Assembly (NCBI RefSeq): GCF_000300815.1
Contig: NZ_AMRX01000007.1
Span: 248,001 to 312,000 of the forward strand
Source: Gayadomonas joobiniege G7
Lineage (GTDB): Bacteria; Pseudomonadota; Gammaproteobacteria; Enterobacterales; Alteromonadaceae
DNA length: 64,000 nucleotides
Reading direction: 5' to 3'
Shown here: in pieces, positions 8,466 to 32,535 of the stretch
Layout of the letters: each line of letters starts with the position of its first letter
How positions within the stretch are numbered: the first letter of the stretch is position 1
Program-made: the position numbers and the translations under genes
The notes under the pieces: model-generated
What the model saw: only the letters and a program-made list of their open reading frames with translations
Told to the model about the DNA's origin: nothing
Databases searched by the model: none

Positions 8466-11366
8466 ATGAACAACAACTTATCCAAATTAACTATGGCTAT
8501 CCTCTCTGCTACTTTGGTCGGACTGCCATTCACCACTCAGGCTCAAGAAACCCCATCAGAAGACTTAGAAGTTATCCAAGTTAAAGGTATGGCGGGCAGT
8601 ATGGCTGAGTCGGCCAGGCAAAAACGGTTTAATACACGCATTGTTGATGCCGTTGTTGCTGAAGACATTGGTAAATTACCAGACAATAATATCGCAGAGG
8701 CACTTCAGCGTATTACCGGGGTCTCCATAAGCACGAATTTTGGTGTCGGAGAATCAGTCACTATACGAGGCATTTCACAGAACAGAGTCGAGCTAAACGG
8801 TCGCTCGACTTCAGGTAGTGGTCGCGGTGGTATCAGTTTAGAAGACTTTCCGTCGAGCTTCTTAAAAACAGTTGAAGTCATTAAATCGCCCACCCCGGAA
8901 ATGATTGAAGGTGCGTTAGGCGGTACGATTAACATGAAAACGGTTCGTCCGCTTGAGCTAAACGAACCAACTATCGCTTTTACCCTTGATGGGGAATACG
9001 CGGATAAAACTGAAAATTGGGCGCCTCGATTTAATGTCTCAGCAGGCTCAAATTGGGATTTGGGGGATGCTGGTAGTTTTGGTGCATCAGCTGTTTTAGC
9101 ATACCAAGACCGAGAACTGCGCCGCGACGAATTTTTTAACTTGATCACGCCAACGGAGCTCGATTTTGATGGTGATGGTAACAGTGAGCAAGCGAATACA
9201 GCGAGTGGTAACTTTTTAGTCCGCAGCCAAAATACGGTTGAACAAAAAACGGAACAGCGCGAGCGAACTGCTTACGGTATTTCACTGCAATGGGCCCCAA
9301 AAAACGCCGAAGGATTTATCTATCTAGATATCAACACCACTGAGCTAGATGGTGGCCAAGAAGCCTACTCAGTGTTAAATGATAGTAAAGATTACTCCGA
9401 TTTGGTGTTAGCGGACGCCTACGGTGATAGTGAGGGACAGTTACACAATTTTGGCTCTGGCAGTGTGTTTGTACAACCAAAAACCTGGGCTGATTTTACC
9501 ACCAATGATTCTACGTCAAATGCTTTAGGTGGTGAGTTTTTACTCAATGATAGCGTTAAGTTATCGGGTGAAATTGCCTATACTAAATCAGATGCATTAC
9601 AGACAAAATCTGAGTTTAACTTACGCCCAATATCCCGAGATCAGTACGAAGCGGATGGCACTATTACCGAGCACCTATTTACTATCACTATGACTCAGGA
9701 AGGTGATAAAATCCCTGGTTTAGCATTTTCTGACCCAGATGCTTTATTAGATCCAAACAATCTAGCGATCCGCCAATTTACCCACCAAACTTACCAGACA
9801 GATAACGAAGAAACAGCGATTCGTTTAGACGTAGAATATAGCGAACCATTTGGTATTAACTTTATTCGTAACTTTAAAGCAGGTGTTCGAACCACAGATC
9901 GAGATTACGAATTAGACCGCTATGACTTGCGTAATAACGGCAGTGAGCTTAAAAACTTGCAAACCAGTGTGTCTTACGATGGTGTGGTACGTCCAACATG
10001 GGCTGACGAATTTAATGATACCTATGGTGGTTTTAAGGAAATCAACCACGCTAATTCGTTCGACCAGACAGGCATTTCTGGCAGTAACGCATTAACGCAT
10101 TATTGGGTTTACGATGGTGCCCTGTTAGCTTACGACATCAATGGTACCTACGAAAAAGTTAAACAAATGCTGGCTGGAAGCAGCCATGAACTAACGGGCA
10201 GTTTAGCCGACAACATGGTGCGTAATACCGGCTCGTATGCCAAAATCAATGAAGAAACTAGAGCCATTTATGGACAGTTTGAACTAGACTTTGACGAACT
10301 TACCGCTGTCGTTGGTGCAAGGTACGTCACCACAGATCTTGTTTCTAGCACATACGATCAAACCGGCGAGCATGACTACTCTGATTTATTGCCCAGTTTA
10401 AACGTGACTTATAATTTATCACAAGAAACCCTGTTACGATTTGCCGCAGCCAAAGTAATGCGTCGGGGTGATTTTAGTGAACTAAGCCCAGCATTAAACG
10501 TTGATAACTCCTTAGTGACTGGGTCTCAAGGCTCATACAAACTCGACCCTTACCGTATTACCCAATATGATTTTTCAGCAGAACACTATTTTGGCAATGG
10601 TGGTATGGCGTCGGCAGCGATTTTTTACAAAGACGTACAATCCTTTACCGTCAGTAGCAGCTCTTGTATCGCACATCCAAATACAGTGGCCGATCAAAAC
10701 GTTACCGAGTATGTAAATGTTTGTCTACTGGACAATGCTGGCGTCAGCCAAGATGATGTGAGATATGCAACCGGTAACCAAGACTTGGCCTACGTAGAAG
10801 CTCAGCGAGACGCTGGCCTGACAGGTATTGTTATTGATACCGATGTAAATGGCGGTAGTGGTGAAGTCGTTGGTTTAGAACTTGCCTACCAGCAGCAACT
10901 TGACTTTATTCCAGGGCTTGGTTTTGCGACCAACTACACCTACGCAGATAGCGAGCAACCAGATGGTAACCCTCTGTTAGATATTTCTAACCATACCTTT
11001 AACGGACAAGTTTATTGGGAGCATGAGGGGTTTCAAGTCAGGGTCGCTTATAATTGGCGCGACAAATATTTAGACACGCAAGACGAAAAACGTGTGCGTC
11101 CTGTCGGTGCACTGGCAACGGGTATTTACAATCGCACTAATCCAGATGAGGACTATTTTGATCCAACCCTTGGGAATAACTACCGTGATTCTCGCGGCCA
11201 GTTTGATGTATCAGCCAGTTATGACGTCGATGAACATTTTACCTTAATTGCCAACGCAGTAAACTTAACTGGCGAGCCAATTCGTCAGGTCACTGAGCTA
11301 AATAGCATCTGGCTTTACAGTGAATCAGATCGCCGCATTACATTAGGCGTTCGAGCCAAGTTTTAA
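8466..11366 (+). CDS. TonB-dependent receptor, probable alginate-oligosaccharide uptake
   Basis: A 966-residue outer-membrane receptor. A signal peptide (cleavage likely after FTTQA, residue about 26) is followed by the plug domain: a IQVKG segment, then VVAEDIGKLPDNNIAEALQR, TIRGIS and VEVIKSPTPEMIEGALGGTI, all standard for sugar-type receptors. The barrel ends in the usual aromatic-type C-terminus (RRITLGVRAKF). Large receptors of this class import oligosaccharides in Alteromonadales; here the PL7 lipoprotein follows and PL6 diverges, so alginate oligomers are the probable cargo. The ATG has CCGGAG about 9 bases upstream. It is probably controlled by the operators at 8323 and 8361. Confidence 0.88.
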   Translation: MNNNLSKLTMAILSATLVGLPFTTQAQETPSEDLEVIQVKGMAGSMAESARQKRFNTRIVDAVVAEDIGKLPDNNIAEALQRITGVSISTNFGVGESVTIRGISQNRVELNGRSTSGSGRGGISLEDFPSSFLKTVEVIKSPTPEMIEGALGGTINMKTVRPLELNEPTIAFTLDGEYADKTENWAPRFNVSAGSNWDLGDAGSFGASAVLAYQDRELRRDEFFNLITPTELDFDGDGNSEQANTASGNFLVRSQNTVEQKTEQRERTAYGISLQWAPKNAEGFIYLDINTTELDGGQEAYSVLNDSKDYSDLVLADAYGDSEGQLHNFGSGSVFVQPKTWADFTTNDSTSNALGGEFLLNDSVKLSGEIAYTKSDALQTKSEFNLRPISRDQYEADGTITEHLFTITMTQEGDKIPGLAFSDPDALLDPNNLAIRQFTHQTYQTDNEETAIRLDVEYSEPFGINFIRNFKAGVRTTDRDYELDRYDLRNNGSELKNLQTSVSYDGVVRPTWADEFNDTYGGFKEINHANSFDQTGISGSNALTHYWVYDGALLAYDINGTYEKVKQMLAGSSHELTGSLADNMVRNTGSYAKINEETRAIYGQFELDFDELTAVVGARYVTTDLVSSTYDQTGEHDYSDLLPSLNVTYNLSQETLLRFAAAKVMRRGDFSELSPALNVDNSLVTGSQGSYKLDPYRITQYDFSAEHYFGNGGMASAAIFYKDVQSFTVSSSSCIAHPNTVADQNVTEYVNVCLLDNAGVSQDDVRYATGNQDLAYVEAQRDAGLTGIVIDTDVNGGSGEVVGLELAYQQQLDFIPGLGFATNYTYADSEQPDGNPLLDISNHTFNGQVYWEHEGFQVRVAYNWRDKYLDTQDEKRVRPVGALATGIYNRTNPDEDYFDPTLGNNYRDSRGQFDVSASYDVDEHFTLIANAVNLTGEPIRQVTELNSIWLYSESDRRITLGVRAKF

Positions 11367-11374
11367 CCTGTTTT

Positions 11375-11431
11375 AGCAGAAACCAGACGTTAAATTAGTT
11401 TCTTGTCCCCGTTACTAGTTAGGTTTCTGCT
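11375..11431 (+). terminator. Inverted repeat after the receptor gene, partial terminator candidate
   Basis: AGCAGAAACC at 11375-11384 pairs exactly with GGTTTCTGCT at 11422-11431 over a 37-base loop, followed by CTTTTATT. The long loop makes it a weak terminator; it may trim or attenuate transcription between the receptor and the PL7 gene. Confidence 0.4.
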
Positions 11432-11497
11432 CTTTTATTCTGCTTGACCCTATTTTGATTTGGGTCGATTAAACAACCAAAATAATGGAGCTATAAT

Positions 11498-12610
11498 ATG
11501 ATTCGTGCTAAACAAAGCGCTTTAGTGTGTTTGACGAGTGCTTGTGGGCTCATATTAAGCGCCTGTGGTGATTCACAACCAAAATCACCACAGGTAAACA
11601 ATGAGCCAGATTCAGTACTTACTCCCGGCCAAGTGTTTGATCTGAGTAAATGGAATTTAACGATACCGTTAGATCTCGATAATAGCGGCAATGCCGATAC
11701 GATTAGCTCAGCTGATTTAGCTAACTACCAAATTGCTGATTTTTTTTATCTTGATAAAAACCAACATATGGTTTTTGCTGCGCCCAATAAAGCGATAACC
11801 ACGCCAAACTCTACCAATACAAGAAGTGAACTAAGACAAGTATTTGATGAAGACACCGACGATAAAGTTGGCACACGTAATCCAAAAAGTTATTTTGCCT
11901 TAGCATCCAACCCAGAGGCCGAAAAATTTGCATCGATTGGCGCACGTATGCAAGCAACATTAAAAGTTAATCATGTTTCGGTTAACGCCAAGTATGGTGA
12001 CAAACCACCCGCTTATTCGGTTGTTGTCGGACAAATTCATGCCGGAAAGTTAGACGAACTGCGGGATCTGGAATCTGGTTTTGGATGGGGCAATGAACCA
12101 TTAAAAATCTATTATAAAAAATACCCACATCATGCCACTGGTTCAGTATTTTGGAATTACGAACGCAATTTAACCAAAGATGATCCAAACCGGATAGACA
12201 TCGCATATCCAGTATGGGGAGATGGCTGGAACAGTGATGCTGATCCCGGCAAAACGGGTATCGCTCTAGGTGAAACATTTAGTTACACAGTGAATGTCTC
12301 TGGAGATATAATGTACTTAGAGTTTTCTTCTGCTAATCATGCAACGGTGAAACACCAGATAAACTTAGCCAATAATCTAGATGCAAATGGCCAAATTGAT
12401 GAGTATGATCAAAAAGATGGTTACCGAAAGGACTGGCTATTTTTTAAAGCCGGTGCGTATAATCAATGTAGTTCCAAAGATGCCCCATCATTTCGCTACC
12501 CAGCTTGTCCGGGTACTGGCGATTGGCAAACAGATAAAGCAGATGGCAATTATACAAGCGTAACCTTCTCGCGTTTAGAATTAACTGCGCCCGTCGCTAT
12601 GAATAAATAA
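11498..12610 (+). CDS. PL7 alginate lyase lipoprotein
   Basis: A 370-residue alginate lyase of family PL7 (jelly-roll, alginate_lyase2). The N-terminus is a lipoprotein signal ending in LSAC (Cys22), followed by a short linker and the single catalytic domain starting at FDLSKWNLTIP. Three PL7 signatures are visible: RSELRQ, GQIH (catalytic His) and FFKAGAYNQ (catalytic Tyr). It probably sits at the outer membrane and makes the oligomers taken up by the receptor just upstream. The ATG follows TGGAG at normal spacing. It lies 130 bases after the receptor and 67 before the LacI gene. Confidence 0.92.
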   Translation: MIRAKQSALVCLTSACGLILSACGDSQPKSPQVNNEPDSVLTPGQVFDLSKWNLTIPLDLDNSGNADTISSADLANYQIADFFYLDKNQHMVFAAPNKAITTPNSTNTRSELRQVFDEDTDDKVGTRNPKSYFALASNPEAEKFASIGARMQATLKVNHVSVNAKYGDKPPAYSVVVGQIHAGKLDELRDLESGFGWGNEPLKIYYKKYPHHATGSVFWNYERNLTKDDPNRIDIAYPVWGDGWNSDADPGKTGIALGETFSYTVNVSGDIMYLEFSSANHATVKHQINLANNLDANGQIDEYDQKDGYRKDWLFFKAGAYNQCSSKDAPSFRYPACPGTGDWQTDKADGNYTSVTFSRLELTAPVAMNK

Positions 12611-12635
12611 ACCGCCAGAACCAAAAAACCAACTT

Positions 12636-12657
12636 CAGGCATCTTAATTGATGCCTG
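12636..12657 (+). other. Hairpin between the PL7 and LacI genes
   Basis: CAGGCATC / GATGCCTG 8-bp perfect stem with a 6-base loop and no T-tract. It lies just upstream of the regulator's ribosome site, so it may set the relative expression of the two genes by protecting or exposing mRNA ends. Confidence 0.4.
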
Positions 12658-12677
12658 CAAGCAAGGTGATGATGTAA

Positions 12678-13700
12678 ATGACTAAAAAAGTACGACTTAT
12701 TGATGTAGCAACAAAAGCAGGTGTTTCTAAAAGCACAGCCTCTCAATTTTTAAATGGGCGCTTTGACTTTATGTCATTAGAAACCCGTTTAAGAATACAA
12801 AAAACCATTCAAGAACTAAATTATGTTCCGAACAACTTTGCACGCAGCTTAAAAACGAATAAGACCCGCATTTTGGGGGTGATCGTACGGGATATCTCTA
12901 GCAATTATACCGGTCAAGCGATCCGCGGAATGGATGATTATTGTAAAAATCATGGTTATGATTTAATCATTTACAATACCGACTTTGACCCAAAAACTGA
13001 AGAAAGTGCGATTAAAGCCCTTTGCCGGCTCAATGTAGACGGTATTATTATCGCCTCTTGCGGTAGCAACGCCCAATTTATCGAAGAAACCTCACGCAAC
13101 ACAGTACCTGTGATCCAATTTCAATTAGAGCACGAAGATTGTGATACCAGTGTCGTTGTAGCTGATTACAAAAGAGCATCTTTTAACGCCACCAAATACT
13201 TAATTGAGCTGGGTCATAAAGATATTTGTTTTGTTACTCAACCATTTGAAACCGTTAACTCTCGCCGAGAAAAATACCTTGGTTTTGTTGACGCCCACAA
13301 AAAATTATCGGTTCCGATGAGAGAAGATTTAATAATTTATTGGGATCGTAAAAGTGGCTTGCAGACAAACCCACTCGATTTACTGGATACTGAGCAACCA
13401 GCTACGGCATTTTTCACCCAGCAAACCGCTATTACCATGGATATATTAAAGTTGTTTAATAAAGCAAATGTTCAACTGCCAGAACATGCCTCTTTATTAG
13501 GTTTTGAAGATATTCCTAATGCTGAGTTTTTTACCGTCCCCATCAGCGTAATTAAGCAACAACCCTATGAAATCGGCGAGCAGGCAGCCCGGTTATTAAT
13601 TACCAAACTTGACCATCCTAAATCCTTTAATACACGTATTCAGATCCCCTGTGAGTTAGTCCTTAGAGATTCATGTGGTCGCCCTAAAATAAAACTTTAG
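12678..13700 (+). CDS. LacI-family transcriptional regulator of the alginate locus
   Basis: A 340-residue LacI/GalR regulator. The N-terminal helix-turn-helix (LIDVATKAGVSKSTASQFLN, residues 7-26) is followed by a hinge (NYVPNNFARSLKTNKTRILG) and a periplasmic-binding-protein-like sensor domain. An in-frame stop immediately before the ATG at 12678 fixes the start; AAGGTGATG serves as ribosome site. As the last gene of the right arm it most likely binds the TAAACCGGTTTA palindromes and responds to a uronate intermediate. Target and ligand are inferred from position. Confidence 0.88.
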   Translation: MTKKVRLIDVATKAGVSKSTASQFLNGRFDFMSLETRLRIQKTIQELNYVPNNFARSLKTNKTRILGVIVRDISSNYTGQAIRGMDDYCKNHGYDLIIYNTDFDPKTEESAIKALCRLNVDGIIIASCGSNAQFIEETSRNTVPVIQFQLEHEDCDTSVVVADYKRASFNATKYLIELGHKDICFVTQPFETVNSRREKYLGFVDAHKKLSVPMREDLIIYWDRKSGLQTNPLDLLDTEQPATAFFTQQTAITMDILKLFNKANVQLPEHASLLGFEDIPNAEFFTVPISVIKQQPYEIGEQAARLLITKLDHPKSFNTRIQIPCELVLRDSCGRPKIKL

Positions 13701-24500: not shown

Positions 24501-24845
24501 AACTCAATAAGATTTTTGCGTTATCTTTTTTGAAGAAAATCACATTTTTTTTCTTATCTTTATGATCTAATTGGATATATTCTCAGTAAAAAACTGTGAC
24601 AAAAAAATGACAAAAAATTATTTCAAACTCGTTGGTTTAATAACACAGTGAGATTGAATATCATTTACTCGTTGCTTAGGAACAAGGAAAGCACCCACAT
24701 TCAGAGCGACATGGAAAAGAAACCATTCAAGGATTAAGGAAAAGGGTAAGGAAAACAGGAGTGAAACATCAGGATGATGTAATAAGGACATTTAGGGTAA
24801 AGGTAAGGACTTATAAGCTGGGATGCTGAAGGAAATTAGGATTAT

Positions 24846-25300
24846 GGATTAAGGACAGCGACAAGAGAGGAACTCTCGCAGGAGCAATCAGGAAGAATTG
24901 GAATAAAAGGAATGCTGAGGACGGCGTAATAGGAAACCAGGAATACGGATTAGGGACAGCGACAAGAGAGGAACTCTCGCAGGAGCAATCAGGAAGAATT
25001 GGAATAAAAGGAATGCTGAGGACGGCGTAATAGGAAACCAGGAATACGGATTAGGGACAGCGACAAGAGAGGAACTCTCGCAGGAGCAATCAGGAAGAAT
25101 TGGAATAAAAGGAATGCTGAGGACGGCGTAATAGGAAACTAGGAGTACGGATTAGGGACAGTGATAAGAGAGGAACTCTCGCAGGAGCAGTCAGGGAGAA
25201 TTGGAATAAAAGGAATGCTGAGGACGGCGTAATAGGAAACTAGGAGTACGGATTAGGGACAGTGATTAGAGAGGAACTCTCGCAGGAGCAGTCAGGGAGA
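24846..25300 (+). repeat. 101-bp tandem repeat, 4.5 copies, inside the CsrB-like RNA
   Basis: Units begin at 24846, 24947, 25048, 25149 and 25250 with an exact 101-base period; the fifth is about half length. Each starts GGATTAGGGACAG (first copy GGATTAAGGACAG), contains the GAGAGGAACTCTC hairpin and carries about ten GGA motifs. Copies 2 and 3 differ at only two bases near their ends; copies 4 and 5 share further changes (AGTGAT, CAGTCAGGGAGA). The graded divergence suggests recent amplification. Confidence 0.95.
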
Positions 25301-25457
25301 TATGGATAGGGAGCGCATAGGATTGTAATATTGGACACAGGGTGGATCCCCAGCAGGAGCGCAAAATAGAACTATTAGATTAAGGAATCTTTTGTACTAA
25401 GGGACATGCGAGTGACATGGCAGGTCATCATCGGGATAAGATGATTCAGATTTATCG

Positions 25458-25481
25458 GGCGGCTTTATGCCGCCTTTTTTT
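25458..25481 (+). terminator. Intrinsic terminator of the CsrB-like RNA
   Basis: GGCGGC / GCCGCC stem with loop TTTAT, followed by seven T. Confidence 0.92.
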
Positions 25482-25557: not shown

Positions 25558-27192
25558 ATGCAATTAAGCCGCGCCATCCGCGACAATCTAAAATTTTTAG
25601 TGATTGAAGTAAATGCCCAACTAAGTCACCTGCACACCTACTTAGATACTCGGGTAGAAACAATTGCACAACGGATCTTAAGTCGTAGCGGCTATTCCTA
25701 TAATTTAATGTTGCGCATTCATAATGCAGCGACCCGCCAAATGAGTCCCGCTGATCCACAAATTACATTACAAATGAATGCCGTTTCTAGCATAGCCAGC
25801 GAACTAGAAAGGATCACCCAACTGGCTCGTGAATGTATTCAGCAAACGAGTTATATCGAATCTGAAAAATCAATTAATTTCTCTATCTACTTACCAATGA
25901 TCGAAAAGATCATGAAAAGTACTCAAGTAATTGAAACTTCACTGTTTAATACCAACACAGAAAAAGCACTCAAGCTTGCAAAGACCGAACGTAAACTTGA
26001 TAAATCTTATCAAAAGATTTTTACAAAAAGCATCAAGTCACTGAAAAAAAAGAAAAACATCCAAGATAAAGTGACAGGCCTATTCATTGCACACTACTTA
26101 GAGCAAATGGGCGATTGTTTATTAAATATCAGTGAAGCGATCATCTCAAGTAACATTGGCCAACCAATGGATCTTAACCGCTTTCAATCACTTAAAGAAA
26201 CTTTACAAAGCTGGTCAAGCGAACAAAGCTTAGGACAGGTCGAAGTCTCTCAAATAGCAGAAACACGCTCAGGTAGCAGCATTTCTAGCGTCCGCTACCA
26301 AGACAAAAAAAACAACCAGCAACAAGCGATTTTTAAAGATGGTGAACTCAGTAAATTAAACGAAGAATTTGAAGGCGTAGAACGCTGGCATAAAACCTAC
26401 CCAGGGATAGCACCACAAATTTTAACGTATCAAAAGTCAGGCGATAATGCTGCCCTGTTAATAGAGCACTTACCAGGGATAACCTTTGAACAAATTGTAT
26501 TAAATGCACCAAAATCTCAAATGAACCGCTCTATTGAGCAACTTGCAAAAACACTCGCCGACATTTATAAAACAACCCGTCAAGAAAATACCATTACCGC
26601 AGGTTTTATTAGCCAGACGCGAAAACGGTTGCCAGATGTTTATGCGATTCATCCAGAGTTTCGCCAAAGCAGTGTGAACATTGGCGGCTTAAACCAGCCC
26701 AGTTTAGAAACCTTATTGATAGCCGCAGAAACAATCGAAACTGACTACCCTGCCCCCTTTTCGGTATTTATTCATGGTGATTTTAACCTCGACAATATTA
26801 TTTATAACCCTGCGGTAAACCAAATCAGATTAATAGACTTACACCGCTCCTGTTATTCAGATTATGTGCAAGACATTAGTGTATTTATGGTTTCAAACTA
26901 CCGCCTTCAGGTGTTAGATAAAAAAACACGCACTCGAATTCAAAATCAAGTACTGAATTTTTATAAGCAGATCCGTACAGTTGCTAAAGAACAAAAAGAT
27001 ACTACCTTCGAAATACGCCTCGCCCTAGGGTTGGCCCGTTCTTTTGTCACTTCGACCCGATTTATTATGGATAAAACGATGGCCCGCAACATGTTTTTGC
27101 GCGCCCAGTTTATTTTGGCCCAATTGGTCAAATACCAACATAAAGACTTATCAACCTTTAAACTGCCCATTGAGGAACTTTTTTGTGGTTAA
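25558..27192 (+). CDS. PhoU-like/aminoglycoside-phosphotransferase-like kinase fusion
   Basis: This 544-residue protein has two parts. Residues 1 to about 215 are helical and resemble PhoU: SELERITQLARECIQQT (81-97) and HYLEQMGDCLLNISEAI (179-195) recall the two metal-binding PhoU signatures of the E-R-x-x-D type. Residues about 225-544 form an APH/choline-kinase-like phosphotransferase: a nucleotide lobe, Brenner motif HGDFNLDN (406-413, catalytic Asp408) and metal Asp427 in RLIDLHRS. It is the first gene of a seven-gene cassette and overlaps the next by 8 bases. The substrate is unknown; antibiotic resistance is unlikely given the context. The PhoU assignment is by motif only. Confidence 0.75.
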   Translation: MQLSRAIRDNLKFLVIEVNAQLSHLHTYLDTRVETIAQRILSRSGYSYNLMLRIHNAATRQMSPADPQITLQMNAVSSIASELERITQLARECIQQTSYIESEKSINFSIYLPMIEKIMKSTQVIETSLFNTNTEKALKLAKTERKLDKSYQKIFTKSIKSLKKKKNIQDKVTGLFIAHYLEQMGDCLLNISEAIISSNIGQPMDLNRFQSLKETLQSWSSEQSLGQVEVSQIAETRSGSSISSVRYQDKKNNQQQAIFKDGELSKLNEEFEGVERWHKTYPGIAPQILTYQKSGDNAALLIEHLPGITFEQIVLNAPKSQMNRSIEQLAKTLADIYKTTRQENTITAGFISQTRKRLPDVYAIHPEFRQSSVNIGGLNQPSLETLLIAAETIETDYPAPFSVFIHGDFNLDNIIYNPAVNQIRLIDLHRSCYSDYVQDISVFMVSNYRLQVLDKKTRTRIQNQVLNFYKQIRTVAKEQKDTTFEIRLALGLARSFVTSTRFIMDKTMARNMFLRAQFILAQLVKYQHKDLSTFKLPIEELFCG

Positions 27193-28081
27193 TTTAAAAA
27201 TTGCCGTGATCGGTTTACCCGGAAAATGGTCTAGCGAAAAGCTAGCCGATGCAATCGAAGAAAAAACAGGCTTTCGACTGCTAATAGACATGGCCGATAT
27301 CCGGTTCGACAGCGATACTCAATCACTTTGGCACCAAGAACAAAACCTCGCCGAGCTTGATGCTGTGATGGTAAAAAAAATAAGCCCAGAATATAACCCT
27401 CAAGTAATTGATCGTTTAGAGTTACTGCGTATTTTAGAAGTGCAAGGCGTCCGCGTATTTAGTCCTGCCGATAGCATCATTGGCCTAATAAACCGATTAA
27501 GCTGCACTATAACCTTATGTAAACAACAAATTCCTATGCCACCGACTCAGGTGACCGAATCTGTTGAGCAAGCAATAAAAATAGTAAAAGAATACCAAGA
27601 AGCTGTATTTAAACCGCTATTTTCGAGTAAAGCTCGCGGCATGTTCGTAGCCAAAGCCAGCACACCAGAAGCTGAGTTAAGAGCACAAATTAGTGAATTT
27701 AACGCAGAACATCGCAGTATGTATATCCAGAAAAAACTCGCCCTACCAGGGAAAGATTTAGGTTTAGTGTTTTTAGGCGGCGAATACCTTGGTACTTATG
27801 CCAGAGTGTCAGGTTCGGATACTTGGAATACAACCATTAATAGCGGTGGTAAATATGCCAGCTATCAACCAAGCGAAAAAATCATCGATATTGCCCAGCG
27901 TGCGCAAGCCGCATTTAATATGGACTTTACGACAGTTGATGTTGCCGAATCTGAACTTGGACCCGTGGTATTCGAAGTATCTGCATTTGGTGGCTTTAGA
28001 GGTGCACTAGAAGGCGCTGGCATAGATGCCGCCAGCCTGTACGTTGATTACGTTTTAAAAGAATTAAGGTCTGCGCAATGA
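27185..28081 (+). CDS. ATP-grasp enzyme, GAK-system type
   Basis: A RimK-like ATP-grasp protein of 298 residues. It starts at GTG 27185 (VNLKIAVIGLPGKWSSEKLADAI), 8 bases behind GAGGA and overlapping the kinase stop; an apparent longer frame from 27044 lies inside the upstream gene and is not real. Visible ATP-grasp features are AVFKPLFSSKARGMF (nucleotide-binding Lys) and the C-terminal FTTVDVAESELGPVVFEVSAFGGF, where the metal ligands sit. ATP-grasp enzymes join a carboxylate to an amine or thiol via acyl-phosphate, or phosphorylate small molecules. It resembles the ATP-grasp member of the GAK gene set; the substrate is unknown. Confidence 0.8.
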   Translation: MVNLKIAVIGLPGKWSSEKLADAIEEKTGFRLLIDMADIRFDSDTQSLWHQEQNLAELDAVMVKKISPEYNPQVIDRLELLRILEVQGVRVFSPADSIIGLINRLSCTITLCKQQIPMPPTQVTESVEQAIKIVKEYQEAVFKPLFSSKARGMFVAKASTPEAELRAQISEFNAEHRSMYIQKKLALPGKDLGLVFLGGEYLGTYARVSGSDTWNTTINSGGKYASYQPSEKIIDIAQRAQAAFNMDFTTVDVAESELGPVVFEVSAFGGFRGALEGAGIDAASLYVDYVLKELRSAQ

Positions 28082-29184
28082 ACATAAAGCCAAATCAAAT
28101 GCAATCAAAAAACATTAGCGAACAAATTAAAAACCACTTTAAACATCAGCAATGGTTTGAAACTGATTTTCAATTTTTAATGCTGCCAGTACGAATAATA
28201 AGCAATAATACTGTAGTGCTGCAAAGCTTAAAAAAGTACTTTAGCGAATATATATCGCCACGTGCCGACACACCGGTCACCCAGATTTATGTTTTTGAAG
28301 AAGAAGATAGTACTCCCCTACCTTACGATTGGCAGGATTGGGCACGCGAACCAGGAAAAACAGGGCGCAAAGATGCGTTTGTAGAATGCGAGCAAGGTCG
28401 AGTGATTTTAAAAGTGCGCACAGGAATGCAGTTTTTGCAAAGTCAGCAACACAAAATTGCATGGGGAGCGGTCGCCAACAATTTAAACCAAGTGATTAAC
28501 TTTATAAATAACCAGTATATGAATCATTTACAAGCCGAAGATTGGTTAATCAGCCACGCCTCTGCTTGTTTACTGAATCAGCAGGCACTGGCGTTTGCAG
28601 GTTATTCAGGTGGCGGTAAATCCACCATAATGCTGCATTTAATGAATCAATACGGTGCTAAATTTATTAGTAACGACAGGCTTTTTATCAGTCCAGGTCA
28701 ATCCGCCGTTAAAGTTGCTGGTATCCCTAAATTGCCAAGAGTGAATCCCGGTACTCTAATGAATAACCCAGCGCTGAGCAAAATGCTGGACACAGAGCAG
28801 CTAAATAAATATGCTGAGCTAGCAGAAACAGACTTATGGCAGCTAGAAGAAAAACACGATGTAAACATAAAAAATGTGTTTGGTGATAACAAAGTCGTAT
28901 TGGAAGGCCCATTGGGTGCTTTATATATTTTAAATTGGTCGCATAAGAGCAAACAAGCAACACAAATAAATGCAATCAGTTTGCATCAAAAACCACACTT
29001 ATTAAAAGCCGTAATGAAGAGTCCGGGTCCCTTTTATCAGGACAATTTGGGCGACTTTATTGACGATACGTTTACCCCGCAAGCAGAGGACTACCTTGCT
29101 CGGTTAGCAAATACCAAGGTGTATGAAGTAACAGGTAAAGCCGATTTTCAAGTGCTCAGTCGTTTCTGTGCACAGGAACTTTAA
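28078..29184 (+). CDS. HPr-kinase-related kinase (HprK-related B type)
   Basis: A 368-residue protein with an HPr-kinase-like P-loop, GYSGGGKST (175-183), then FISNDRLFI, where HprK has its metal and catalytic region, and GIPKLPRVNPGTL. The N-terminal 150 residues are not recognisable. The start ATG overlaps the ATP-grasp stop (ATGA). True HprK phosphorylates Ser46 of HPr; this branch lacks the N-terminal DRTGG-like domain and is known mainly from gene-neighbourhood models that pair it with an ATP-grasp enzyme, exactly as here. The target could be a protein or a small molecule. Confidence 0.78.
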   Translation: MNIKPNQMQSKNISEQIKNHFKHQQWFETDFQFLMLPVRIISNNTVVLQSLKKYFSEYISPRADTPVTQIYVFEEEDSTPLPYDWQDWAREPGKTGRKDAFVECEQGRVILKVRTGMQFLQSQQHKIAWGAVANNLNQVINFINNQYMNHLQAEDWLISHASACLLNQQALAFAGYSGGGKSTIMLHLMNQYGAKFISNDRLFISPGQSAVKVAGIPKLPRVNPGTLMNNPALSKMLDTEQLNKYAELAETDLWQLEEKHDVNIKNVFGDNKVVLEGPLGALYILNWSHKSKQATQINAISLHQKPHLLKAVMKSPGPFYQDNLGDFIDDTFTPQAEDYLARLANTKVYEVTGKADFQVLSRFCAQEL

Positions 29185-29201
29185 CTGATGAGGTAGCCGC
29201 G

Positions 29202-30170
29202 ATGCCAAAAAAATTAATTCTAATCTGCGAAGGCAAAAGCGATAAACAAACCCTAATTGGGTCAAGTAATAATGCAAAGCGCAAAGCAACGCGGCCACTA
29301 AGTGATAAAGGTAAACGTTTAGCACAACGGCTCGGAATTTGGTTATTGCGGCAAAATCTTATACTAGACGAGGTTTTGAGTTCAACTTCAGAACGCGCAA
29401 TGACAAGCAGCGAAAAAATGCTTAAAGCAATGAACCTAGGTGCTAACCGGATTCGTAGCACACAAACTTTAGCTAACCTTCGCCCAAAACAACAGCTCAA
29501 AATGATTAAAGAGCTACCTGATTCGGCCAATAATGTCGCCGTAGTTGGTAATAAAAAACAGTTGAGTGCTTTATTAAAAACTTTGTCCAAAGCACCGCAC
29601 GAGCCGCTAAAAGCCTCTTCCCTGATCGTTTTGTCTGGCCCTAAAAAATGGAAAAAAGCAGCGCCAAAGCGCTTTGAAACTTGCGCTCAAACCAATAAAA
29701 AATTACTGCCTAAAGGGTTTCCGTATCCCCACTTAAGTAGTCAAGAGACTCGTATACGGCCAGCCTATTATTACCAACAATCGGCCGTGTTACCTTACCG
29801 TATTAAAAAAGATCAAATTCAACTCTTGTTAATTACCTCAAGTAAAAACAACCACTGGGTGATACCTAAAGGCATTCACGAACCTGGTTTGAGTGCGCAA
29901 GAATCTGCCGCCAAAGAAGCATTTGAAGAAGCAGGCATCGAAGGCAAAGTAGAAGCCTGTTTATTAGGTCAATACGAGATCACTAAATGGCAAGGACAAT
30001 GCACGGTTAAAGTGTATCCGATGCAAGTATTACATCAACTATCTAACGCCCGTTGGCCAGAATCCCACCGGCAGCGAAAATGGATGTCACTAGACGAAGC
30101 CAAAAGCTGTTTAAATAACCCTCAGCTCGAACCTATTATTGAGCAATTGCAGGAATATTTAAGGTCATGA
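29202..30170 (+). CDS. Degenerate SixA-like domain fused to a DIPP-type Nudix hydrolase
   Basis: A 322-residue two-domain protein. Residues 1 to about 135 follow the SixA histidine-phosphatase layout, but the catalytic RHG is CEG (residues 9-11) and the usual VGH is VGN (115-117), while the mid-domain Arg (STSERA, Arg65) remains. The phosphohistidine nucleophile is therefore gone. Residues about 185-322 are a Nudix domain with box GIHEPGLSAQESAAKEAFEE (224-243) then AGI; the REUxEE core is KEAFEE with metal glutamates intact and the first box Glu replaced by Leu. The PKG..E.G pattern is like diadenosine/diphosphoinositol polyphosphate hydrolases. It starts 17 bases after the HprK-like gene. 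Confidence 0.8.
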   Translation: MPKKLILICEGKSDKQTLIGSSNNAKRKATRPLSDKGKRLAQRLGIWLLRQNLILDEVLSSTSERAMTSSEKMLKAMNLGANRIRSTQTLANLRPKQQLKMIKELPDSANNVAVVGNKKQLSALLKTLSKAPHEPLKASSLIVLSGPKKWKKAAPKRFETCAQTNKKLLPKGFPYPHLSSQETRIRPAYYYQQSAVLPYRIKKDQIQLLLITSSKNNHWVIPKGIHEPGLSAQESAAKEAFEEAGIEGKVEACLLGQYEITKWQGQCTVKVYPMQVLHQLSNARWPESHRQRKWMSLDEAKSCLNNPQLEPIIEQLQEYLRS

Positions 30171-30853
30171 ACCAGCCAATCATTGCTTTTATTCGTCATG
30201 CGCATTATTTACAACAAGTCGACGCACCCAGTGCGTTTCAACCACACCCGTTAAGTGAACAAGGCTGGCAACAAGCCGTTCAATGTGCACAGCAAATCAG
30301 CGAATTTTGCTCTAAATATGCCGGTAGGCCTATTTATTTGCATTGTTCAAGCCTGTTAAGGGCTTGGCAAACGGCAGATGCCATTGCAACACAGCTTGAT
30401 AACAAAAACATAAGCGTATGCGCCTTTAGACAAACCGAGCAGTTGTGCGAGCGCAGCGTAGGTGGTTTAGCCAATTTAACAGTCGCGGACATTGAGCAAA
30501 TTTTACAACAAGATCCCAGAGTAAAAGACCTGCCTAAAGATTGGAAATCTGACAGTTATTTTTGTTTACCAGTGCCTGGCGCTGAATCTTTAATGCAAGC
30601 TGGGCAGCGAGTAGCTACGTATATACAATCCCAGATATCGAACGAACCTGTGAATAGCCTGCATTTATTTGTCGGTCACGGTGCATCAATCCGACATGCC
30701 GCCTATCAGCTCGGCATATTAAAATTTGAGCAAATAAAACAGTTAAGCATGCACTACGCACAGCCTGTTATATACCAAAAAACTGACGCAGGCTACCGAA
30801 TAATGCTAGGTGAGTGGAAAGTACGTGCAAAGCACAGTCAATATAGAGATTAA
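30167..30853 (+). CDS. Histidine phosphatase (phosphoglycerate-mutase fold)
   Basis: A 228-residue histidine phosphatase with an apparently complete active site: AFIRHAHYL (Arg10-His11, nucleophile), LHCSSLLRAWQTA (second Arg), QTEQLCERSVGGL (acid Glu) and LFVGHGASIRHAA (second His). It overlaps the Nudix fusion by 4 bases (ATGA). In contrast to that partner's dead SixA domain, this copy looks active, so the two may be a catalytic and a regulatory pair. The substrate is unknown. Confidence 0.82.
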   Translation: MNQPIIAFIRHAHYLQQVDAPSAFQPHPLSEQGWQQAVQCAQQISEFCSKYAGRPIYLHCSSLLRAWQTADAIATQLDNKNISVCAFRQTEQLCERSVGGLANLTVADIEQILQQDPRVKDLPKDWKSDSYFCLPVPGAESLMQAGQRVATYIQSQISNEPVNSLHLFVGHGASIRHAAYQLGILKFEQIKQLSMHYAQPVIYQKTDAGYRIMLGEWKVRAKHSQYRD

Positions 30854-30856
30854 GCC

Positions 30857-32185
30857 ATGCAGTTAGAAAAACATTTAGAAAAAGTGCAAGATAAACTGCC
30901 TTTATCGCAATTACCCCTCACTTCACAAGCCTGGCTTGATGGTAAAAAATTTGCAATACGAAAACGCAAAGCGAACCACCATGTTAGTAAAAAAGCCGTT
31001 AAATCATTATTATCAGGTGCTCGGTGGCAATGGCCGAAACGTGAAATAATTTTTATCACCGACCTACATGCAGATGCCGACGCTTTGCGCCATTCCTTAG
31101 CCTTGTCTGGCGGTGTACGATTAACGGGTAAAAATAGCCAACAACTAGAATTAACTGAATTTGGCCAAAAAGCCCTGTTTGTATTTGGTGGCGACTTTTT
31201 TGACAAAGGCCCCAGTAACCTAGCGCTATTGGAAACTCTATATAAGCTGATTAAACTCGGTGCGAAAGTACGCTTGTTAGCGGGAAATCATGATATTAGA
31301 GTATTATTTGGCATGCGCTGCGTGGGGCAAACCGATGATCCCCGTAACGGTCACTTTTTTATTCGTATGGGCGCAAAAGCAGTGCCATTTTTGAAAGAAA
31401 TTTATGACAAATATATCAGCTCTGCCGATTTGAAAAAAATCCCAGATAGCGATTATTGTCAAAGTCAACTCTACCCTAGCGAAGTTTGGTGGCAAAACTT
31501 TGCCGACCTAGCGGGTTGGGTCATGCCTAAAGTCGCAATTGAGCGCGAAGTAAAAAAAATCGAAAAAAAGACGGAACGCTTCGCGGCTGTTTGCGCCGAT
31601 GCGGGTTTAGATATTCGCCAAGCCTATGCTGCTGCCATTAAGTGGCAAGCGTTATTTTTGCAACCTGATGGTGAGTTTAGTTGGTTTTTTAAACGTCTAA
31701 AACTTGCTTATAAAAGCGGCTCTTTTTTATACGTGCATGCTGGTTTAGATGACCGCATGGCTGCCATGCTTAACGAACATAGCATTAGCCACATTAACAA
31801 ACAATTTCAAAGCGCGTTAAAAGCCAGTCCGTTCGAGTTTTATTATGGGCCTATTGCCAATACCATACGCACCAAATATAGGGTCGTTGATATGCCACTT
31901 ACTCAAATTGGCACAGAGCACGCGCATAAAGCTGGTATTTATGCCATTATGCATGGCCACCGAAATTTGCATCACGGACAGAGAATTGCAGTGCGAAAAG
32001 GCTTATTGCATTTTGAATGTGATGTTACGCTCGATATCAATTCACGGCAAAAAGAAGGCCTAAAAGGCTTAGGTGCTGGCGTTACTCTGATCTCACCCAA
32101 ACAATATATTGCCGGCATTAGTACCGATTATCCTAAAATTAAATTTTTTCAACCTGACAGGATCACCAATAATGGAAAACGATAA
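30857..32185 (+). CDS. Calcineurin-like metallophosphatase
   Basis: A 442-residue metallophosphoesterase with all core motifs of the PPP/calcineurin fold: FITDLHADAD (Asp69, His71), FGGDFFDKGPS (Asp113), LAGNHDIR (Asn144-His145), VHAGLDDR and IMHGHRNLHHG. An inserted helical section rich in Lys (about residues 225-255) separates the two halves. It starts 3 bases after the histidine-phosphatase gene. Family members act on phosphoproteins, nucleotides or Ap4A; this branch is unplaced. Confidence 0.83.
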   Translation: MQLEKHLEKVQDKLPLSQLPLTSQAWLDGKKFAIRKRKANHHVSKKAVKSLLSGARWQWPKREIIFITDLHADADALRHSLALSGGVRLTGKNSQQLELTEFGQKALFVFGGDFFDKGPSNLALLETLYKLIKLGAKVRLLAGNHDIRVLFGMRCVGQTDDPRNGHFFIRMGAKAVPFLKEIYDKYISSADLKKIPDSDYCQSQLYPSEVWWQNFADLAGWVMPKVAIEREVKKIEKKTERFAAVCADAGLDIRQAYAAAIKWQALFLQPDGEFSWFFKRLKLAYKSGSFLYVHAGLDDRMAAMLNEHSISHINKQFQSALKASPFEFYYGPIANTIRTKYRVVDMPLTQIGTEHAHKAGIYAIMHGHRNLHHGQRIAVRKGLLHFECDVTLDINSRQKEGLKGLGAGVTLISPKQYIAGISTDYPKIKFFQPDRITNNGKR

Positions 32186-32441
32186 CTTTCGCTACGAATC
32201 GATTTTTGACAAAGACGCTTTAGTCGAGCTGCTTGAAAATATTACCGAAGGCGTGCGTAGCGGAGCGTTAGAGTTAAGTGATCAAAATAAAAGCATTCAA
32301 TTATCACCACAAGGTTTAATGCAATTTAGGGTCACTGCAGGGCAAGATGGTAGTCAGCATAAATTAAGCTTACGCGTGAGCTGGCAAGGTTCGGAAAAAA
32401 AATCAGGTGATGGTATTTTAAAAGTTAAAGCTGGAAAATAA
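32172..32441 (+). CDS. Amphi-Trp domain small protein
   Basis: An 89-residue protein, start ATG 32172 with AGGA 8 bases before it, overlapping the metallophosphatase by 14 bases. The sequence (FRYESIFDKDALVELLENI ... VRSGALELSDQNKSIQLSP ... LSLRVSWQG) fits the amphi-Trp domain: an amphipathic helix, a short beta section, and a conserved Trp near the end. Such proteins accompany the ATP-grasp and HprK-like genes in the GAK gene set; a role as carrier or substrate is an inference. It is the last gene of the cassette, 3 bases from the convergent tRNA-Ser gene. Confidence 0.7.
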   Translation: MENDNFRYESIFDKDALVELLENITEGVRSGALELSDQNKSIQLSPQGLMQFRVTAGQDGSQHKLSLRVSWQGSEKKSGDGILKVKAGK

Positions 32442-32444
32442 AAA

Positions 32445-32535
32445 TGGCGGTGAGGGAGGGATTTGAACCCTCGATACGCGATTAACGTATACACGAGTTC
32501 CAGTCGTGCGCTTTCAGCCGCTCAGCCACCTCACC
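32445..32535 (-). tRNA. tRNA-Ser (GGA)
   Basis: A full cloverleaf on the minus strand: acceptor GGTGAGG / CCTCACC, anticodon loop CTGGAAC (anticodon GGA), a long variable arm typical of tRNA-Ser, a T arm with GGTTCAAATCC, and an encoded CCA (plus-strand TGG at 32445-32447). Confidence 0.96.

Follow-up and report, generated by a model that had tools for sequence, protein, structure and literature searches.

What does a compact set of kinases, an ATP-grasp enzyme and phosphatases do for the bacterium that carries it, and does it form a single unit? This question is raised by seven genes at positions 25558-32441 of a 64,000-nucleotide stretch of the Gayadomonas joobiniege G7 genome, the whole of which we call the window. 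A preliminary description of this DNA had seen here a GAK-type gene set and had proposed a reversible phosphorylation circuit around a small molecule or the amphi-Trp protein. We find that the cassette is a proteobacterial form of the catalogued GAK system. Our preferred reading of its function, to which we give slightly less than an even chance, is that of a phosphate-starvation/polyphosphate cassette that adds phosphoryl or pyrophosphoryl groups to a small metabolite and removes them again.

Six core genes and one variable gene

The ORF list and translations of the window give seven open reading frames (ORFs), tightly packed and all on the + strand:

25558..27192, + strand: core gene 1, fusion of a PhoU-like helical domain (residues ~1-215) to an APH-type kinase (~230-530), here PhoU-APH (Pfam PhoU, APH)
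27185..28081, + strand: core gene 2, GAK system ATP-grasp enzyme, GTG start (TIGR04356)
28078..29184, + strand: core gene 3, HprK-related kinase B, HprK-B (TIGR04355)
29202..30170, + strand: variable gene, fourth in the cassette, degenerate SixA domain joined to a DIPP-like Nudix hydrolase domain (NUDIX, TIGR00249)
30167..30853, + strand: core gene 4, histidine phosphatase, HisP, phosphoglycerate-mutase-like, branch 1 (Pfam His_Phos_1)
30857..32185, + strand: core gene 5, calcineurin-like metallophosphoesterase, MPE (Pfam Metallophos)
32172..32441, + strand: core gene 6, amphi-Trp small protein of 89 aa, ATG start (TIGR04354)

The genes lie where the preliminary description had placed them, with overlaps or gaps of at most 17 nt, except that two starts were moved, that of the ATP-grasp gene to GTG 27185 rather than TTG 27044 and that of the amphi-Trp gene to ATG 32172. 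With the corrected starts, the junctions in gene order are an overlap of 8, an overlap of 4, a gap of 17, an overlap of 4, a gap of 3, and an overlap of 14 nt. Curated NCBIfam cut-offs were passed by three of the proteins, namely the GAK ATP-grasp enzyme (436.5 bits vs cut-off 300), HprK-B (302.8 bits vs 200), and amphi-Trp (60.3 bits vs 31), in keeping with the GAK-type set named earlier. Gene 1 matched Pfam PhoU (44.9 bits) and APH (43.4 bits), both above gathering, and its nearest solved structures were PhoU (5e-10) and APH(3') (1e-6). The fourth gene matched NUDIX at 37.5 bits, and its N terminus is SixA-like (TIGR00249, 30.1 bits, under its cut-off of 74.5), while HisP matched His_Phos_1 at 64.4 bits and MPE matched Metallophos at 35.9 bits (both Pfam). 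The Pfam and NCBIfam matches agree with the families assigned beforehand to all seven genes.

Is this set of genes kept together elsewhere? Of 32 homologous loci examined (L051-L082, 20 of them on named contigs), whose identified hosts are Gamma-, Alpha-, and Zetaproteobacteria, seven (L054, L058, L061, L065, L068, L070, and L079) were set aside, their first or last core gene being at most 400 nt from an end. In 24 of the 25 loci uncut by contig ends, PhoU-APH, the ATP-grasp enzyme, HprK-B, HisP, MPE, and amphi-Trp follow each other in the same order on one strand; the sole exception, L081, lacks HisP. Counted as complete are L063, despite having HisP and MPE only as short fragments, and L055, whose PhoU-APH is split over two ORFs. 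Such constancy in 24 of 25 uncut loci shows that the arrangement is not due to chance, and by the gene-neighborhood check proposed in the preliminary description the genes are co-conserved. Among the loci set aside, L061 holds all six core genes, with amphi-Trp 4.2 kb downstream, and L054 has no amphi-Trp gene despite 6.3 kb of sequence past its MPE. L070 (8945-10612) has the ATP-grasp and HprK-B genes and no PhoU-APH upstream despite 8.9 kb present there, which is possibly another version of the system. The core order is kept in 24 of 27 loci if L054 and L070 are counted.

The phosphatase and Nudix additions had been taken for an extended version of the GAK set. The two phosphatases, together with PhoU-APH, belong instead to the core in these Proteobacteria. 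The SixA-Nudix gene is the variable one, found in or near 14/32 loci (between HprK-B and HisP in 10 and elsewhere in the locus in 4). Other genes recur at the borders: a second Nudix gene just upstream (L062, L063, L066, L067, L069, L073, L077, and L142), a separate ApaH-type gene beside the cassette (L056, L074, and L075), and a CofD-like gene of the TIGR04357 type beside it (L059, L060, L064, L067, L077, L082, L142, and L144).

The cassette is rare. The HprK-B model at 1e-20 found 4/394 genomes of the order and 16/398 of the phylum, 14 of the latter 16 exceeding the curated cut-off; the window's own genome is one of these 16 GAK-positive (GAK+) genomes, and in two others contig ends cut the matches. 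The HprK-B model matched none of 14 named control genomes, and 2/8 Catenovulum genomes carry an ATP-grasp gene over the cut-off. Five plasmid records were matched, and the three that were opened, all alphaproteobacterial, each carry the same six core genes, with GAK names in their RefSeq annotation. The pairwise distances of the seven proteins correlate at 0.74-0.90, which fits joint inheritance as well as a shared species history. The unit is thus a six-gene core plus a variable seventh gene, SixA-Nudix, sparsely distributed and plasmid-borne in some hosts. It is probably a horizontally mobile operon, which would move as a block.

Active sites, modelled folds, and the reactions they suggest

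The residues expected of working enzymes are retained, and the kinase and hydrolase nature given to the genes in the preliminary description holds. Invariant in the alignments are the APH residues HGDFNxDN and IDxHR of gene 1, the Walker A GGGKST of HprK-B, R10, H11, R65, E95, and H171 of HisP, the MPE motif residues DxH, GGD, GNHD, HAG, and GH, and the Nudix glutamates E239, E242, and E243. The three hydrolases counted earlier are plausible as Nudix, HisP, and MPE. In the SixA half of the window copy, the RHG catalytic motif is lost ('ICEG'), as it is in 9 others of the 15 aligned; it is kept in 5/15 (L059, L060, L064, L073, and L077). Two further active sites depart from their relatives. HprK-B has Asn199-Asp200 (26/26 sequences) in place of the Asp-Asp catalytic pair of HprK, which the window genome's own PEPCK also has (IGDDEHGW). 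The ATP-grasp enzyme has E265-V-S267 (23/23), that is ExS instead of E-x-N, the metal-binding motif of RimK-type amino-acid ligases, and the solved ATP-grasp relatives displayed carry EVN. As judged from these residues, the cassette enzymes would be active, on unusual substrates.

To which enzymes are they closest? For the ATP-grasp protein, the solved relatives are RimK/LysX (best 7e-20 in the PDB search), and the next-best family matches after its own are MptN (8.8e-44) and RimK-family ligases. The Nudix half of the fourth gene is closest to diphosphoinositol polyphosphate phosphohydrolases (DIPP; named entries at 9.3e-15 to 7e-14, top PDB row 2duk, MS0616, at 9e-15), with Ap4A hydrolases (1e-9) ranked after them, and its N-terminal domain has SixA relatives among solved structures at 3.5e-14. 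The nearest solved relative of MPE is ApaH (5e-4). In the available part of PMC6537752, Ddp1-type Nudix enzymes are counted among the polyphosphatases.

These kinships allow two accounts that differ from ours. The ligase-like matches of the ATP-grasp enzyme to MptN and RimK fit a cofactor pathway, in which it would attach an amino acid such as glutamate, in the way of CofF, MptN, and RimK, the CofD-like enzyme would make a phosphodiester, and the kinases and phosphatases would make or trim precursors of an F420-like product. The CofD-like gene beside the cassette in eight loci points the same way, as does the one elsewhere in the window genome (432.6 bits vs 340; G000:C4:206818-207918, equal to L141:9301-10470), which is unlinked to the cassette. 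We nevertheless regard this account as unlikely. The RimK-type ExN is ExS in all 23 aligned members, and the CofD family is over its cut-off in only 6/18 GAK+ genomes (none in 12/18), yet in 6/6 GAK-negative (GAK-) Catenovulum. Because CofD occurs in all eight Catenovulum genomes, six of them without the cassette, and is over its cut-off in only 6/18 GAK+ genomes, it is weakened as an obligate partner. Moreover, a cofactor pathway predicts neither the Pho boxes nor the CHAD genes described below.

The second account is that of housekeeping, with the ApaH-like MPE, the Nudix enzyme, and HisP clearing ApnA-like alarmones or damaged nucleotides from side reactions and the kinases salvaging the products. 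The ApaH and Ap4A hydrolase matches and the separate ApaH-type gene next to three of the cassettes would suit it. It is highly improbable in our view, as it leaves unexplained the rarity of the cassette (16/398), its carriage on plasmids, and the constant company of a kinase/ATP-grasp set with the hydrolases.

Does HprK-B act on a protein or on a small molecule? By sequence, the top of its PDB search is taken up by ABC transporters that match at Walker A, with HprK only at 0.9; with the window genome's own PEPCK it has the stretch HASA...GxSGxGK[ST]T in common (hhalign 35 columns, probability 32%). The structure model (predicted local distance difference test score, pLDDT, 89) aligned with PEPCK 2pc9 over residues 10-368 (Z 15.3, 299 residues, root-mean-square deviation, rmsd, 5.1) and with HprK 3tqf over residues 156-368 (Z 14.2, 134 residues, rmsd 2.4). 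Further PEPCK rows came within 1 Z unit of HprK, such that PEPCK and HprK are tied by Z and unequal in coverage. The modelled fold is PEPCK/HprK-like, and the PEPCK coverage favors a small-molecule kinase. The amphi-Trp model is a helix with four strands (pLDDT 87), and W71 is invariant. It has no clear relative in fold: no Foldseek match was found below 0.001, the best VIA match had a Z of 3.0 (GnsA), and when solved structures were searched by sequence the best hit stood at 0.013.

If HprK-B, perhaps with the APH kinase, phosphorylated amphi-Trp and the phosphatases reversed this, phospho-amphi-Trp could regulate in the manner of HPr-Ser-P. Such a protein switch is suggested by the cataloguing of HprK-B as HprK-related, by the match of its C-terminal part to HprK structures, and by the presence of amphi-Trp in 25/25 uncut loci, with Ser10 in 26/29 and Ser36 in 25/29 sequences. 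These two serines are the best conserved of their kind, however, and no Ser, Thr, Tyr, or His of amphi-Trp is invariant. The Asn-Asp of HprK-B differs from the Asp-Asp of both HprK and PEPCK, its model also aligns along residues 10-368 with PEPCK, a small-molecule kinase, L054 has no amphi-Trp gene, and the ATP-grasp enzyme and the Nudix hydrolase are left without a task. We judge the switch distinctly unlikely. The circuit of reversible phosphorylation proposed in the preliminary description is supported in part; its suggestion of amphi-Trp as the target is unproven.

Pho boxes, CHAD-ParA genes, and the flanks

The chief clue to function, which is absent from the preliminary description, is a phosphate/polyphosphate context made up of Pho boxes, CHAD-ParA, CYTH, and the DIPP-type Nudix. 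Pho boxes were scored as CTGTCAT-N4-CTGTCAT (the PhoB consensus) over 14 positions with a threshold of 11/14, within the 300 nt that precede the first gene and on its coding strand. The 32 loci scored were the window, three plasmids, and those 28 of L051-L082 that have PhoU-APH; in eight loci and in L142, the first gene was taken to be a Nudix or CHAD gene lying upstream on the same strand. A tandem Pho box of at least 11/14 was found in 11/32 loci, compared with 0.33 +/- 0.55 (maximum 3) in 200 dinucleotide-shuffled replicates, and one of at least 12/14 in six of 32, compared with 0.01 in shuffles. Half-site spacings other than N4 (0-11 nt) gave just 0-3 loci each. With permuted half-sites, 0/400 reached 11 loci (mean 0.54, maximum 8, the top ones mostly shifted versions of the Pho site). 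When PhoU-APH was taken as the first gene throughout, at least 11 matches were found in 7/29 cassettes vs 4/147 neighboring genes (p=3e-4), two of these four neighbors belonging to the CHAD operon of L079, and at 12 matches in 5/29 vs 3/147 (p=0.003). An initial scan of both strands had given 8/29 loci. The positive loci are from Photobacterium, two Marinomonas, Paracoccus, two Rhodobacterales plasmids, and five other genomes, and L080 has four Pho half-sites in a row.

In L061, L071, and L079, a CHAD protein of ~500-530 aa with an adjoining ParA ATPase stands next to the cassette; in L058, the flank holds a CHAD cut by the contig end. CHAD is therefore in the flanks of 4/32 loci vs ~0.05 expected, an estimate based on a mean genome size of 4.2 Mb and uncorrected for kinship, L061 and L079 being one family. 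CHAD-ParA adjacency (within 1.5 kb) was checked in 30 loci from 75 positive genomes and in six further loci. Among the loci checked, a full-length close CHAD with adjacent ParA was found in seven genomes of the phylum, 4/16 GAK+ vs 3/382 GAK- (p=6e-5), the close-CHAD cut-off having been set post hoc to fall after 1e-90 and to exclude the partial match ranked next (G611, 2e-68). In a held-out test, 3/13 GAK+ genomes not used for the models had the pair (p=5e-4). Within Catenovulum, CHAD-ParA is present in 2/2 GAK+ genomes, on stretches apart from the cassette and with a shorter CHAD (319 aa) in G002, and in 0/6 GAK- genomes, all six of which have another, weaker CHAD. Near the CHAD-ParA pairs are genes for CYTH (L071, L138, L225, and L227), Nudix (L138 and L225), and SixA-like proteins (L226). 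ParA alone and any CHAD were rejected as markers of the GAK system, being too broad (present in 75/398 and 100/398 genomes, with p=0.20 and p=0.14, respectively).

As far as the available parts of these articles go, CHAD domains bind polyphosphate (PMC6537752), CHAD proteins are found at polyphosphate granules (PMC6537752, PMC9239181), folD-ppk-parA-CHAD is conserved in Acidithiobacillus (PMC10892726), and GAK genes are not mentioned in those parts.

Two arrangements outside the cassettes concern the CHAD genes themselves. In G511, where neither of the GAK markers searched turned up, CHAD-ParA and a SixA-like gene (L226:7020-9933) stand behind a strong tandem Pho box match (12/14), which suggests that phosphate may also govern the CHAD-ParA module. 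The GAK+ genome G461 has an ORF in which SixA is fused to CHAD (L136:8787-10247; SixA 56.6 bits, below the cut-off of 74.5). In L061, an AAA ATPase that weakly resembles PtuA (30.6 bits vs cut-off 500) and a small family-less gene lie between MPE and CHAD (11105-12796), perhaps as a defense-type insertion.

On the upstream side, the window has a GGA-rich stretch after folA (24640-25480), with 67 GGA in 841 nt vs a mean of 6 in equal window stretches; it includes an array of a 101-bp unit repeated 4.7 times (24830-25300) and a terminator (25457-25475). A GGA-rich stretch also follows folA in six Catenovulum genomes without the cassette, and for this reason it likely encodes a CsrB-like RNA. Rfam CsrB was tried and rejected as the family of the array (12.7 bits vs gathering 71).

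Downstream, the 3' end of a tRNA-Ser (GGA) gene (32445-32535, - strand) lies 3 nt beyond the cassette. The order in the window is folA, GGA-rich stretch, cassette, tRNA-Ser, and nadA, and that in the cassette-free Catenovulum genome G006 (L246) is folA, GGA-rich stretch, one gene, tRNA-Ser (GGA), and nadA. Because G006 has tRNA-Ser and nadA near folA without the cassette, the tRNA-Ser site may be where the cassette was inserted or lost.

Two other views of the cassette, whose genes are numbered here by position, were examined and rejected. For anti-phage defense, PADLOC gave only weak matches (Cas9 at 0.0046 for gene 1, PDC-S07 at 0.0015 for gene 4). For phage origin, PHROGs matched only genes 1, 4, 5, and 6, the families hit being Nudix (5e-26, gene 4), phosphatases, an RNA ligase, and others whose function is unknown, with no match for genes 2, 3, and 7.

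Proposed role and comparison with known systems

Taken together, the Pho boxes, the CHAD-ParA link, and the enzyme types (DIPP-like Nudix, ApaH-like MPE) agree in pointing to phosphate/polyphosphate physiology. We hypothesize that the PhoU part of gene 1 would sense phosphate status, and that the APH kinase, the PEPCK-like HprK-B, and the ATP-grasp enzyme would make a small molecule that is phosphorylated and probably pyrophosphorylated or conjugated. MPE, HisP, and the DIPP-like Nudix enzyme would strip the phosphoryl groups off again, and the small amphi-Trp protein would serve for binding or as an adaptor. The output would, in some lineages, be coupled to polyphosphate through the CHAD-ParA module, sometimes with CYTH.

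A number of observations weigh against this reading. The lines of evidence for phosphate and polyphosphate name no substrate, and the solved relatives of the ATP-grasp enzyme are amino-acid ligases, which suits a conjugate better than a phosphate ester. As to regulation, 21/32 loci are under the Pho threshold, and coding-strand Pho box matches do not rise above chance for the window and C. sediminis cassettes (best 9/14, shuffle fractions 0.36 and 0.46). At 13 matches, cassettes and neighbors do not differ (1/29 vs 1/147, p=0.3). The background is not nil, with a match on the opposite strand in 4/32 loci and an 11/14 match on that strand of the window at 25406-25423, inside the GGA-rich stretch. 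As to the CHAD-ParA link, the pair is missing from most GAK+ genomes (12/16; held-out 10/13), its enrichment counts related lineages separately that are not independent, and four of the six training sequences of the close-CHAD model came from GAK+ genomes of the sample. Broader searches gave no significant difference, either for any CHAD at 1e-25 (7/16 GAK+ vs 93/382 GAK-, p=0.14) or for the ParA class at 1e-35 (5/16 vs 70/382, p=0.20). Finally, our literature searches, which covered a minority of subscription journals and no preprints, found no experiment and no GAK biochemistry or function in print, just as the preliminary description had said of demonstrated biochemistry.

Even so, the link to phosphate starvation and polyphosphate offers a first testable role for the GAK genes and points to media, metabolites, and partner genes. 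If the cassette makes a new phosphorylated metabolite or signal, it would add a layer of phosphate control able to travel on plasmids.

How does the cassette compare with systems already known? In eukaryotes, PPIP5K and DIPP are the enzymes of inositol-pyrophosphate metabolism, and the cassette likewise combines ATP-grasp, histidine phosphatase, and DIPP-type Nudix activities by family. It differs in that these are separate genes and that its ATP-grasp enzyme is nearest RimK-type ligases among solved structures. A bolder form of our proposal, which we think very unlikely, makes the cassette a bacterial counterpart, from other parts, of the eukaryotic system. The ATP-grasp, PEPCK-like, and APH kinases would write a soluble pyrophosphorylated signal, the DIPP-type Nudix, HisP, and ApaH-like phosphatase would erase it, and PhoU would read phosphate; under PhoB, the signal would set polyphosphate storage, through CHAD-ParA where present. 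Were this true, the signal would be a phosphate second messenger, and we know of none such in bacteria.

The HPr kinase/phosphorylase and PEPCK resemble HprK-B in modelled fold, in Walker A, and, for the genome's own PEPCK, in the HASA...GxSGxGK[ST]T stretch; they differ by Asp-Asp for Asn-Asp, the sequence link is weak, and the cassette has no HPr gene. The phosphohistidine phosphatase SixA is related to the N terminus of the fourth gene, whose RHG motif is lost in the window copy. With the CHAD and parA-CHAD-ppk polyphosphate clusters, the cassette shares CHAD, ParA, and some CYTH and Nudix genes, which lie beside it or elsewhere in several GAK+ genomes. CHAD-ParA also occurs without GAK (3/382), and Pfam and NCBIfam scans of the seven cassette proteins gave no PPK or PPX family match.

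The closest likeness is to the GAK system itself (NCBIfam TIGR04354-04357), of which the ATP-grasp enzyme, HprK-B, and amphi-Trp are over their cut-offs in the cassette and the CofD-like protein is found elsewhere in the genome. An XXXCH protein is a further member of the GAK system. The curated names consulted cover only some members, and RefSeq labels PhoU-APH, HisP, and MPE generically although they are regular partners. The GAK families were thus already catalogued; what is new is a proteobacterial form with three regular members beyond the curated names: PhoU-APH, the histidine phosphatase, and the metallophosphoesterase.

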